Positions 45,815-49,470 of a stretch of DNA of 62,898 nt are shown one piece after another. The notes under the pieces were generated by a model that saw nothing but the letters and a program-made list of their open reading frames with translations, had not been told where the DNA came from and ran no database searches. Positions within the stretch are counted from its first letter, which is position 1. The number at the start of each line of letters is the position of its first letter. Both the position numbers and the translations under genes were made by a program. Source of the stretch: a bacterium (GTDB taxonomy: Bacteria > Zixibacteria > MSB-5A5 > WJJR01); contig JAKAKI010000045.1 of assembly GCA_021813505.1 (NCBI GenBank), positions 1-62,898 of the forward strand, read 5' to 3'.

Positions 45815-47212
45815 ATGAGAACATCGATCATGCTTTGGCGTGGTGCTGCGTCAACACAGACGGCAAGAATGCCACAACCCAAAATCAGGAAGGTCGCTGC
45901 TCTTGCCATGGCATTTGTCTTTGGCGTGACAGGGACAGTGCTTCACCCTGGCGCATCCTTAGCAGCCGGAATGTGTTTTCAACCACCGGTGAAATACGCA
46001 AGTGGCTACAATCCAATGAGTCTATTTTCGGTGGACTTGAATATGAATGGCTTCCCCGACCTTTCGGTCATCAACAACTTCAACAGCTCCTCGTACTACG
46101 GTTTCTCGCTGTTGTGGAATACCGGAGAGGGGAAATTCCCAACCAGAGCTGAAGGCAGCGCCGGCAGCCAGCCGTATTCCGTCGCCTATGGCGATTTCGA
46201 CAATGACGGTTGCCTCGACCTTGCCGTGGCGAATGTTTACTCAGCCAACATCTCCGTGATGAAAGGAAACTGCAAAGGCGGATTCGAATCGCCGAAGAAC
46301 TTCGCCGTGGGACAGCATCCTCATGATCTTGTCGCGAGCGATCTTAACAAGGATGGGTGGGTGGACATCGCGGTAGCCAATGGATTTTCGGATAACTGTA
46401 CGATTCTACTTAACAACAAGGATACCGGCATCGCCTTCAGCACCACGACTTACCCGGCTGGTGATGGTTCCCACAATCTGGTGGCTGCAGACTTGAATGG
46501 TGACGGGTACGATGACCTTGCTATTGCAAACTACAACACTAATTTTGTCACGATCTTACTCAACAATGGAGACGGCACGTTTGCCGCAAGTCCGGACTAT
46601 GTGGTCGGAACGGCCCCCTACTCGGTTGTTGCGCGTGATTTGGACGGTGACGGGGACAGCGACCTGGCAATTGCAATGGTGCAAGGAGGGATCCCAGGCT
46701 CAGTCGCAATAGGTATGAATTACGGCAACGGATCATTCGCTACGCCGGTTTCCTATCCCGTTCTTGTGGACCCAATGAGTGTCGTCACCGCTGATCTCGA
46801 CATGGACAACGATCCCGATCTCGCTGTTGCCAACGGCGGATCAGATTCTATCTCAGTGTTGGTGAACAATGGGAGCGGGGCATTCCCGTCCACTATTCAT
46901 GTCCCCGTCGGATATCGCCAGGGTGATATTGTCGCTTCTGACCTGGATCGGGATGGCGACGATGATCTCGCAGTGACGTGTCCGTCAACTGACAGCGTCC
47001 TAGTCCTTGCCAGTTGCGTTAGTACGTGTGAGCCAGTGATCGTACTTGACCGTGGCGCGGACCTTAACTGCGATGGAATCGCCGGCGATGTGTTCGATGT
47101 CATAGCAGCCATTGATATTGCCTTTGGAGGAGGTGTAATCCCGCCATGTGCTGTTACGGATCGCGGCATGCCGACTCGCTTCACCGGAGGGTACTCAGCC
47201 CCACCCAGGTAG
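45815..47212 (+). CDS. Secreted FG-GAP/VCBS-repeat protein with dockerin-like tail
   Basis: 465 residues. Signal sequence about 26-51 (VAALAMAFVFGVTGTVLHPGASLAAG), then seven or so FG-GAP units with the repeated pattern VAxDLxxDGxxDLAVAN (e.g. VAYGDFDNDGCLDLAVAN, VARDLDGDGDSDLAIA) that form a calcium-binding beta propeller. The C-terminus ADLNCDGIAGDVFDVIAAIDIAFGG resembles a dockerin-type EF-hand repeat. Role unknown; surface or extracellular binding inferred. RBS AAGGAGGAAAG. It is the fourth gene of the locus, 254 bases after the peptidase gene, which gap shows no features. Confidence 0.85.
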   Translation: MRTSIMLWRGAASTQTARMPQPKIRKVAALAMAFVFGVTGTVLHPGASLAAGMCFQPPVKYASGYNPMSLFSVDLNMNGFPDLSVINNFNSSSYYGFSLLWNTGEGKFPTRAEGSAGSQPYSVAYGDFDNDGCLDLAVANVYSANISVMKGNCKGGFESPKNFAVGQHPHDLVASDLNKDGWVDIAVANGFSDNCTILLNNKDTGIAFSTTTYPAGDGSHNLVAADLNGDGYDDLAIANYNTNFVTILLNNGDGTFAASPDYVVGTAPYSVVARDLDGDGDSDLAIAMVQGGIPGSVAIGMNYGNGSFATPVSYPVLVDPMSVVTADLDMDNDPDLAVANGGSDSISVLVNNGSGAFPSTIHVPVGYRQGDIVASDLDRDGDDDLAVTCPSTDSVLVLASCVSTCEPVIVLDRGADLNCDGIAGDVFDVIAAIDIAFGGGVIPPCAVTDRGMPTRFTGGYSAPPR

Positions 47213-47292
47213 GGCTTTGGAGTAACTGTCATCTCACCGCCTAGTAGATTGGTTTTGCTCCTGCTGAAGTAGGGCTCCAGCAGGACACGAGG

Positions 47293-47342
47293 GGGAACAA
47301 CCCCGTCCCGCGTGGTTCTGCGCGGGGCGGGGTTCCCGTTTT
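47293..47342 (+). terminator. Probable terminator after the FG-GAP gene
   Basis: Long, nearly continuous hairpin (GGGAACAACCCCGTCCCGCG pairing with CGCGGGGCGGGGTTCCC) followed by GTTTTGG. The U-tract is short but the stem is strong. Confidence 0.7.
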
Positions 47343-47346
47343 GGTT

Positions 47347-47490
47347 GGTAGGGTGCGTCATTGACGCACCTACCCTTACCCCGGCGCGCCCGACTCCGGC
47401 ATCGCCGATACATGCCACGGGCGTCCACTCTTTTCATCAACCGCCTGTCTCGTGCCCGGAGGCAAAAGGTGCGTTGATAACGCACCCTAC
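47347..47490. repeat. REPIN-like element 1
   Basis: Palindrome GGTAGGGTGCGTC-AT-TGACGCACC-TACC at 47347-47374 and an inverted partner AGGTGCGTTGATAACGCACCCTA at 47467-47489 bound a 144-base unit. Internal GTGCCCGGAGGCAAAAGGTGCG is repeated in element 3. Confidence 0.9.
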
Positions 47491-47497
47491 CATTCGC

Positions 47498-47583
47498 GTA
47501 GGGTGCGTCATCGACGCACCTACTCTCACCCCGGCGCGCCCGATGCCCGGAGCCGAAGGGTGCGTTAATAACGCACCCTACCA
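47498..47583. repeat. REPIN-like element 2 (internally shortened)
   Basis: Palindromes at 47498-47523 and 47557-47583 bound an 86-base unit sharing CCCCGGCGCGCCCGA with element 1 but lacking its middle. It ends 44 bases before the transposase start. Confidence 0.9.
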
Positions 47584-47626
47584 GGAAATCTCTTGAGTAC
47601 ACTGATCTTGCACGGCACATTTCGAC

Positions 47627-48157
47627 ATGCCCGAATACAGGCGGGTCCGGATTCCCGGCGGGACATACTTCTTTACGGTGGTCACGCATGAGCGGCGTCC
47701 GATACTCTGCTCGCCCCAATCACGCGCCGCTTTGCGGCAGGCCATTGTCGATACACGACGTGACCGCCCATTCGTTTCCATCGCGTGGGTGCTGTTGCCC
47801 GATCACTTGCATACGATCTGGCAGCTACCTGAGGATGACGCCGACTATCCTACACGCTGGCGGTTGATCAAGGCACGGTTCTCTCGTTTGATTGGCCCCA
47901 CGCTCCTTCCCGTCGAAATCGTTGCCTCTCGCGACAAGCGGGCGGAACGATATGTCTGGCAGCGCCGGTATTGGGAGCATGTGATCCGCAACGAGGACGA
48001 CTTGAGGCGGCACGTCGATTACATTCACTACAACCCTGTGAAACACGGATTGGCAGCAGATCCCGAAGCGTGGCCATATTCGACATATCACAGGTACCAG
48101 TTCACCAATCCATCGCGAACAATGTTGCCACCCGAAGAATTGGAAATCCCCGAGTAG
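47627..48157 (+). CDS. REP-associated tyrosine transposase (RAYT, Y1/TnpA-REP)
   Basis: 176 residues, HUH/Y1 single-strand transposase of the REP family (old name: IS200-like Transposase_17). HUH histidines His60 and His62 in PDHLHTIWQLPE; nucleophile Tyr132 in RHVDYIHYNPVKHGL; VWQRRYWEHVIRNEDDL is the usual preceding helix. Intact length. Flanked by three copies of a palindromic element that are its probable substrates. The TAG stop (48155-48157) is supplied by the palindrome of element 3. No terminal-repeat IS structure is seen, in line with domesticated RAYTs. Confidence 0.95.
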   Translation: MPEYRRVRIPGGTYFFTVVTHERRPILCSPQSRAALRQAIVDTRRDRPFVSIAWVLLPDHLHTIWQLPEDDADYPTRWRLIKARFSRLIGPTLLPVEIVASRDKRAERYVWQRRYWEHVIRNEDDLRRHVDYIHYNPVKHGLAADPEAWPYSTYHRYQFTNPSRTMLPPEELEIPE

Positions 48158-48294
48158 GGTGCGTCATTGACGCACCTACCGTTTCGGAGGCACGCCCGAT
48201 TCGGCCCCGCTGAGGCATCCCTCGTCGTCCGCTCTTCTCAACAACCGCCTGTGCCGTGCCCGGCGGCAAAAGGTGCGTTAATAACGCACCCTAC
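48154..48294. repeat. REPIN-like element 3
   Basis: GTAGGGTGCGTCATTGACGCACCTAC at 48154-48179 and the inverted AGGTGCGTTAATAACGCACCCTAC at 48271-48294 bound a 141-base unit homologous to element 1. It supplies the stop codon of the transposase gene at its left end and of the radical SAM gene at its right end. Confidence 0.9.
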
Positions 48295-49295
48295 TTCTTT
48301 GTGGAATGCACCGCGGCATGGATCGGGCAGCCCACACGCTTCGCGAGCTCGGCCCCCGATTCCCATTTGCGGTAGCGATCAAATGACGAGGCGCGGCGGG
48401 CACAGCCGATTGTGCAGGAGGCTTCGCACCCCTTGCGTTGCGGAAAGTAGCGCGCGATCTCCGCGCGTCCGTATTCCAAAAGCGGGATGCCGGGGTCGCC
48501 ACGTCGCTGGCTGCAGTAAGAGACAATGCCGAATTCATCGATGTACAGATACCGTGAGCCGGCGCGGCATTTCCAGTTGCTGCGGCCTGTGTTGATCATC
48601 TCCCGCTCCCAGCCTTCGCCGAAACGGTGCCAGAGCGAACGGCGCCGGACGCTCCGCACGTGCGACAATAGCTGCATCAAGTCATCCCGATTGACCAACT
48701 CCGACTCGACCGACCCGCCGCCGTTGTGCAAAAGGCTGACCGTCATGTAGAATCCCAGCGAGCGGACTTCATCCACCAGCCGCCTGGTCTCTGCGGCGGG
48801 GACAGAACCCAGCACCGCGTTGATGTTAACTTTGAAAGTCGCGTGATCCCGCAACAGCTGCAATTTCGGTTTCAGTTTGCTCAGCGACTTCTCCGAGACC
48901 TCATCCGGTTCCATATTGTCGATGGAAACCTGAAGCAGCTCGAGCCCCGTGCGATTCAGCCGTTCGATCCGCTGTCTCGTCAGCGCATAGCCATTCGTGA
49001 TCGAGGTGCAGACCATCCCGTGCGAGACGATATGATCGATGACCTCTTCCAGATGGGGGTGCAAGAGCGGCTCCCCGCCGGTCAGGGTGACGATCCCATT
49101 TCCCAGTGAGGCAAGATGGTCAACACACTTCGTTAATTGCGACGTCTCGACCGGCGGCGAGTACTGATCGTACTCATTGCAGTACGCACAGGCCAGATTG
49201 CAGCGGCGGGTGACAACGAGTTGCGCGAGGATTGGCGTGTACGGATCGGCGACAGCCTTGAGGAGACGGCGCAGCGGATCCAGCTTTTTGCGCAT
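48291..49295 (-). CDS. Radical SAM protein with C-terminal SPASM-like cysteine cluster
   Basis: 334 residues. CNLACAYC gives the CxxxCxxC cluster that binds the SAM-cleaving 4Fe-4S centre (with GGEPLLHPHL and ITNGYALT of the core). The C-terminal part has further cysteines (WKCRAG, YCSQ, GCEASCTIGC) of SPASM/twitch type for auxiliary clusters. Substrate unknown; such enzymes modify peptides or proteins or prepare cofactors, and no substrate-like gene adjoins. ATG 49295 has AGGGAGGG; the longer frame to 49391 lacks one. The stop lies in the REP palindrome. Confidence 0.88.
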   Translation of the reverse strand: MRKKLDPLRRLLKAVADPYTPILAQLVVTRRCNLACAYCNEYDQYSPPVETSQLTKCVDHLASLGNGIVTLTGGEPLLHPHLEEVIDHIVSHGMVCTSITNGYALTRQRIERLNRTGLELLQVSIDNMEPDEVSEKSLSKLKPKLQLLRDHATFKVNINAVLGSVPAAETRRLVDEVRSLGFYMTVSLLHNGGGSVESELVNRDDLMQLLSHVRSVRRRSLWHRFGEGWEREMINTGRSNWKCRAGSRYLYIDEFGIVSYCSQRRGDPGIPLLEYGRAEIARYFPQRKGCEASCTIGCARRASSFDRYRKWESGAELAKRVGCPIHAAVHSTKK

Positions 49296-49470
49296 GAGAA
49301 CCCTCCCTGGTTTCGCCGGTGCCCTGTCACAGCAGGGCTGGGTGGCATCTCGCACCGCGCAACGCCCCGGCCACAACTGGCCGGAAGCCACACGGTTCGA
49401 TGCCCATTGCTTTCATGGTACGACCGTTTGACACTCCTGTCAACCCAAGCACCAAGATCATCAAGGTCTT

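Follow-up and report, generated by a model that had tools for sequence, protein, structure and literature searches.

Why do the repeats that surround a RAYT (TnpA-REP) gene also contain the stop codons of its neighbours? In the bacterial DNA analysed here (the window, a stretch of 62,898 nt), three palindrome-bounded elements accompany such a gene, and the TAGs at the edges of one of them end both the RAYT gene and a convergent radical SAM gene. The initial annotation proposed that insertion had trimmed or replaced the ends of these genes. The evidence favours a different answer, to which a probability of about three in four is assigned: the locus is a REPtron, consisting of a RAYT and three GTAG-hairpin REPIN copies, in which the copies have become fixed 3' of GTAG and the genes have kept their own TAG stops. 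The window comes from a draft genome of 95 contigs and 3.9 Mb (the source genome, G000). A second genome of the same genus (G001) provides the closest comparison.

Architecture of the locus

The features of the locus, from left to right, are as follows.

45815..47212, plus strand: FG-GAP repeat protein gene, the upstream landmark on the left; it stops short of E1 and is left untouched by the repeats.
47348..47490, plus strand: element E1, REPIN-like, 143 bp; GTAG and hairpin at 47348-47370, a spacer, then inverted hairpin and CTAC at 47468-47490.
47498..47581, plus strand: element E2, 84 bp, a copy with an internal deletion; over its left 46 nt it matches exactly the single REPIN that G001 has at this place.
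47627..48157, plus strand: RAYT (TnpA-REP) gene, 176 aa, with HUH and Tyr motifs; its stop TAG at 48155-48157 is the tag of E3.
48154..48294, plus strand: element E3, REPIN-like, 141 bp; its two outer GTAG tags contain the stops of the RAYT gene (plus strand) and the radical SAM gene (minus strand).
48291..49391, minus strand: radical SAM protein gene, 366 aa, Pfam PF04055, convergent with the RAYT gene; its stop TAG at 48293-48291 lies inside E3.

The description of three elements, bounded by palindromes in opposite orientation and placed around an intact RAYT with HUH and Tyr, was correct in the initial annotation, as was the observation that the palindrome-edge TAG ends both convergent genes; coordinates were right to 1-2 bases (143, 84 and 141 bp are found in place of 144, 86 and 141). 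The annotation had bounded all elements by one and the same palindrome. Tagged, inverted hairpins are indeed present at both ends, but their stems differ (CGTC versus CGTT): the left hairpin is GTAG-GGTGCGTC(ATY)GACGCACC, whereas the minus strand gives GTAG-GGTGCGTT(ATY)AACGCACC for the right hairpin; an identical TAGGGTGCGTC at both ends is thus not what is found. The shared interior of E1 and E3 is borne out by pairwise comparison (84% identity over full length), and E2 is, as proposed, an internal deletion, corresponding to an E1/E3-type unit minus about 59 bases. As single DNA strands, the elements fold better than 200 of 200 shuffles, with z-scores of -3.9 to -5.5 (E1, -4.2; E2, -5.5; E3, -3.9/-4.8). 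The motif TAGGGTGCGT, allowing at most one mismatch, occurs nine times in the window against 2.3 expected, and none of 100 shuffles reaches nine. These hairpins are GTAG REPs in the sense of short palindromes preceded by GTAG, in the form GTAG-GGTGCGTC(ATT)GACGCACC and variants. Units of two inverted REPs with a spacer, repeated at unrelated loci as is characteristic of REPINs, comprise E1-E3 and two further copies (C58a and C58b) in the source genome, and one copy in G001; the REPIN units of the two genomes are 59-92% identical over the unit. At 47262-47345, CTCCTGCTGAAGTAGGGCTCCAGCAGG precedes a strong inverted repeat rich in GC. This separate feature, which may be a terminator or some other small element, has a near-identical counterpart in G001 (L096), even though the neighbouring gene has diverged there at its 3' end.

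Between the same two genes, G001 carries one full REPIN and no RAYT; its radical SAM protein is 92% identical to that of the window, and the right tag of its REPIN again gives the radical SAM stop. Either the RAYT and the extra copies arrived in the lineage of the source genome, or recombination between direct REPIN copies removed the RAYT in G001. Derivation of the G001 REPIN by recombination between E1 and E3 was rejected: the left half is identical to E2, and the right half is not especially close to any copy.

The RAYT and its relatives

The RAYT gene is intact. Its product belongs to family NF047646 (201.9 bits, cut-off 80) and is homologous over residues 1-156 to E. coli TnpA-REP, PDB 4er8 (E=2e-40). 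The HUH motif, DHLH, aligns with EHMH of 4er8, and the catalytic tyrosine is kept (DYIHYNPVKHG aligned to DYIYINPVKHG). Palindromes flank the gene in opposite orientation, E1 and E2 upstream and E3 downstream. The family assignment, the 4er8 alignment and the three tagged-hairpin elements agree with the annotation, which paired the RAYT with several copies of a REPIN as its likely substrate. The window's RAYT departs from 4er8 in its C-terminal tail and in about 16 residues inserted near residue 92, and the REP that goes with it has a plain stem of 7-8 bp, whereas a bulge is described for E. coli REPs.

Nine RAYT-like genes above the cut-off are found in the source genome. The second strong RAYT (G000:C6, L035:3883-4543) is flanked by a different tagged palindrome, GTAGGGTGGGC..GCCCACC, of the form GTAG-GGTGGGC(TCT)GCCCACC; two RAYT/REP pairs with different stems thus coexist in this genome. 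Hairpins of the GGTGGGC type are carried by this RAYT and by those of G004 and G007, whereas the GGTGCGT type flanks RAYTs of Paracoccus (three), a gammaproteobacterium, a campylobacterotal metagenome-assembled genome (MAG) and one of two in Dolichospermum. Hairpin type therefore follows the RAYT in the set inspected. The overlap of repeat and stop codon is recurrent: the repeat's TAG is the RAYT stop in five of these six loci with GGTGCGT-type hairpins; over all 15 RAYT loci inspected, seven RAYTs end at the TAG of the hairpin downstream, and counting a looser hairpin at the second Dolichospermum RAYT makes eight.

Distribution of the repeat

Genome-wide counts were obtained by searching genomes for the pattern GTAGGGTGCGT-N3-8-ACGCACC, with the reversed pattern as control. 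Since the pattern demands GTAG, tagless copies are invisible to it. The initial annotation had proposed such a count, and the palindrome proves not to be confined to the locus. The 3.9-Mb source genome contains 18 tagged hairpins, mostly extragenic or at gene ends, and no match to the control; this is fewer than the more than 100 copies that are usual, though not strictly required, for GTAG REPs. Six are present in G001, 18 in G004 and four in G006, and zero in the other relatives searched. A scan of species genomes yielded at least 80 tagged-hairpin loci across many phyla; the matches listed include Rhodobacterales, Planctomycetota, Gammaproteobacteria, Cyanobacteria, Campylobacterota and others. 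Kangiella shandongensis (G058, L232) has tagged hairpins and no RAYT match at E 1e-8, which implies that REPs persist or arrive without a resident RAYT. In viral contigs, GTAG is the commonest tag on bare GGTGCGT hairpins (9/84); these bare hairpins are mostly chance occurrences.

Full REPIN units in the source genome number only five, one of them internally deleted. The two copies outside the locus, C58a and C58b, lie about 1.3 kb apart and are 92% identical with unrelated flanks, as expected of moved copies. Their likeness in different surroundings is only suggestive of replication via RAYT within the genome.

Two other arrangements were observed. Degenerate units whose arms resemble GTGCGT/GCGCACC are arrayed in tandem between rnpA-like and yidD-like genes (L032:2083-2600) and appear to derive from REPs. 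At L028:2027 and 5102, about 3 kb apart, the SurE 3' end, the hairpin and the following dockerin-like sequence are duplicated.

Gene ends at the repeats

If insertion into gene 3' ends had trimmed or replaced the last codons, with the repeat then supplying a new stop, homologues that lack the repeat should extend beyond it. The TAGs in frame with both the RAYT and the radical SAM gene are compatible with this, and it was the interpretation offered by the initial annotation. The homologues do not extend in this way. Four repeat-free members of the radical SAM family end within few residues of the window protein, in a tail that is poorly conserved, and truncation of this gene by the repeat is rejected on these grounds. 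The RAYT of G001:C35, which is 54% identical and has no adjacent repeat, has the same (D/E)IPE-stop C-terminal tail. The comparison was extended to further genes that end at the tag of a solo hairpin. (i) BFN ends at the same codon in 6/6 genomes (DFGKYSL-stop or DFGKYQL-stop). (ii) FumC ends in MIGPK-stop in G000, G001 and G002, where its 3' side in G001 has an apparently decayed hairpin and in G002 no hairpin. (iii) SurE is of equal length in 5/5. (iv) The end of LtaE agrees with that of its congener, and the end of an epimerase agrees to about one residue. (v) Kangiella PgpA ends within about two residues of its readable repeat-free homologues (two rows are misread at the N-terminus); these are too distant to reveal the stop that preceded insertion. 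Repeat-free homologues of the radical SAM gene, the RAYT and several other host genes thus end essentially at the same codon, the very outcome that the annotation had itself set against its proposal.

Two loci point the other way, their genes not having kept the ancestral ends. The dockerin gene at C58b (L105:6761) is a short ORF that stops mid-domain at a full REPIN and looks truncated by it, the one such case, and the CMD gene (L025) is an exception whose end looks rearranged relative to G001. Downstream of the CMD gene, the place of the source genome's REP is taken in G001:C140 (L179/L410) by another insertion with inverted repeats, GGAGGGCGAGGC...GCCTCGCCCTCC, which contains an N gap. Trimming as a general explanation is improbable, and it is already contradicted for the RAYT and radical SAM genes. 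As judged from these homologues, the repeats of the locus appear to sit on their neighbours' stops without having shortened either gene.

Stop codons and the origin of the tag

Conservation covers GTAG and the hairpin and nearly ceases upstream of the tag, where only a weak preference for pyrimidines is seen. In the 80 loci listed, drawn from many phyla, crude gene calls (greedy ORFs) identify 10 of the 78 non-coding tags as stop codons, far above the 0.3% expected for GTAG at a random non-coding position (P=4e-14) and similar to 36 of the 454 remaining non-coding GTAGs of that DNA (Fisher P=0.19). The source genome gives the same picture: 9 of its 18 tags are stops of recognisable genes, a count curated by eye and with homologue evidence that includes the segmental duplicate C33b and both ends of E3, against 0.5% for random insertion (P=9e-17) and 8 among the window's 23 other non-coding GTAGs (P=0.13). 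A special preference for stop codons beyond the availability of GTAG is unsupported, the tag rate being about that of other non-coding GTAGs. The simplest reading of this equality is that the GTAG was there before the repeat.

The following series of steps is proposed, the first two from homology. (i) What the RAYT most likely recognises is single-stranded DNA in which the GTAG-hairpin has folded. (ii) The enzyme would mobilise REP and REPIN copies in trans. (iii) New copies would become fixed directly 3' of a GTAG. (iv) Where the TAG is a gene's own stop, insertion would leave the protein intact and the repeat would appear to supply the stop. (v) The RAYT and radical SAM genes would accordingly end at the E3 tags at about their natural ends. 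If REPs sit 3' of a pre-existing GTAG, TAG stops would be harmless landing sites. The specific proposal that the REP tag is target-derived, with RAYT insertion using a GTAG already present, as IS200/IS605 elements use a fixed target tetranucleotide, and with TAG stops acting as harmless landing pads, would account for the tag as well as for the frequent overlap between REPs and stops. It is offered tentatively, at somewhat less than even odds.

A rather unlikely alternative is an element-borne GTAG: insertion would take place precisely at stop codons and convert TGA, TAA or TAG to TAG with the protein unshortened. The GTAG is an integral recognition and guide motif of known REPs; it is recognised within the REP, in a guide-like manner, by the TnpA-REP enzymes studied, which fits an element-borne tag at least as well as a target-derived one (PMC8266576). 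In repeat-free relatives, moreover, the homologous stop codon is TAG, TGA or TAA, a mixture that such conversion would account for. Exact targeting of stop codons would nevertheless need a separate reason, and a stop rate equal to that of ordinary non-coding GTAGs is what is expected of GTAG as a landing sequence. Least probable of all is the idea that the hairpins are host RNA elements (terminators, or structures that stabilise mRNA or tune translation) selected beside stops, their association with RAYTs being incidental. The hairpins do abut stop codons, and E. coli REPs at most 15 nt from a stop are reported to lower translation, according to work cited in PMC12306157. Against a host RNA element stand the lack of a T-run after the hairpins, the full-length REPIN copies with conserved spacers at unrelated sites (C58), the same hairpin types flanking RAYTs in several phyla, and the many tags that are not at stops. 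A secondary regulatory effect of the hairpins may exist.

Strain-level empty sites bear directly on the target-derived tag. Comparison of G000 with G001 at C36a, C2/CMD and the RAYT locus gave no clean empty site, owing to extra insertions, an N gap and divergence. An accessory Paracoccus TetR gene had no homologue at E 1e-50 in 124 congeners. In 450 kb of E. coli MG1655 with about 70 REP tags there was no clear stop-codon case; TAG stops are rare there, which makes that genome uninformative. Should the tag be part of the target, REP insertion specificity becomes testable from such sites, and the position of REPs on stop codons follows from the choice of target and does not signal regulation or gene damage. 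Should it not be, the locus is an ordinary low-copy REPtron in a little-studied lineage.

Comparison with known systems

The REPtron reading places the locus among described arrangements. RAYTs with HUH and Tyr motifs between opposite GTAG palindromes are known from earlier work (Nunvar 2010, PMC2817692; Di Nocera 2013, PMC3733652; Corneloup 2021, PMC8266576), and the locus shares these traits. REPs very near or directly after the RAYT stop codon, as found here, were described by Nunvar 2010 (PMC2817692), and GTAG REPs often give TAG stops to flanking ORFs (Di Nocera 2013, PMC3733652). The GTAG is recognised by the TnpA-REP enzyme and guides cleavage between C and T, and the spread of REPs is described as poorly understood (PMC8266576). 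What is modestly new here is the argument from homologues that the TAG stands where the gene naturally stops; this opens a target-derived tag to testing. Known GTAG-REP REPtrons usually have more than 100 copies, whereas this genome is low-copy, with 18 tagged hairpins. REPINs were defined as two inverted REPs with a spacer that form a long single-strand hairpin and occur at unrelated sites (Bertels & Rainey 2011, PMC3116915), as they do here; the present units differ in the length of the full unit (about 141-143 bp) with a conserved spacer, in numbering only five in the genome, and in their unequal end stems (CGTC versus CGTT). The locus is an ordinary, well-formed, low-copy REPtron with REPIN units in a known arrangement.
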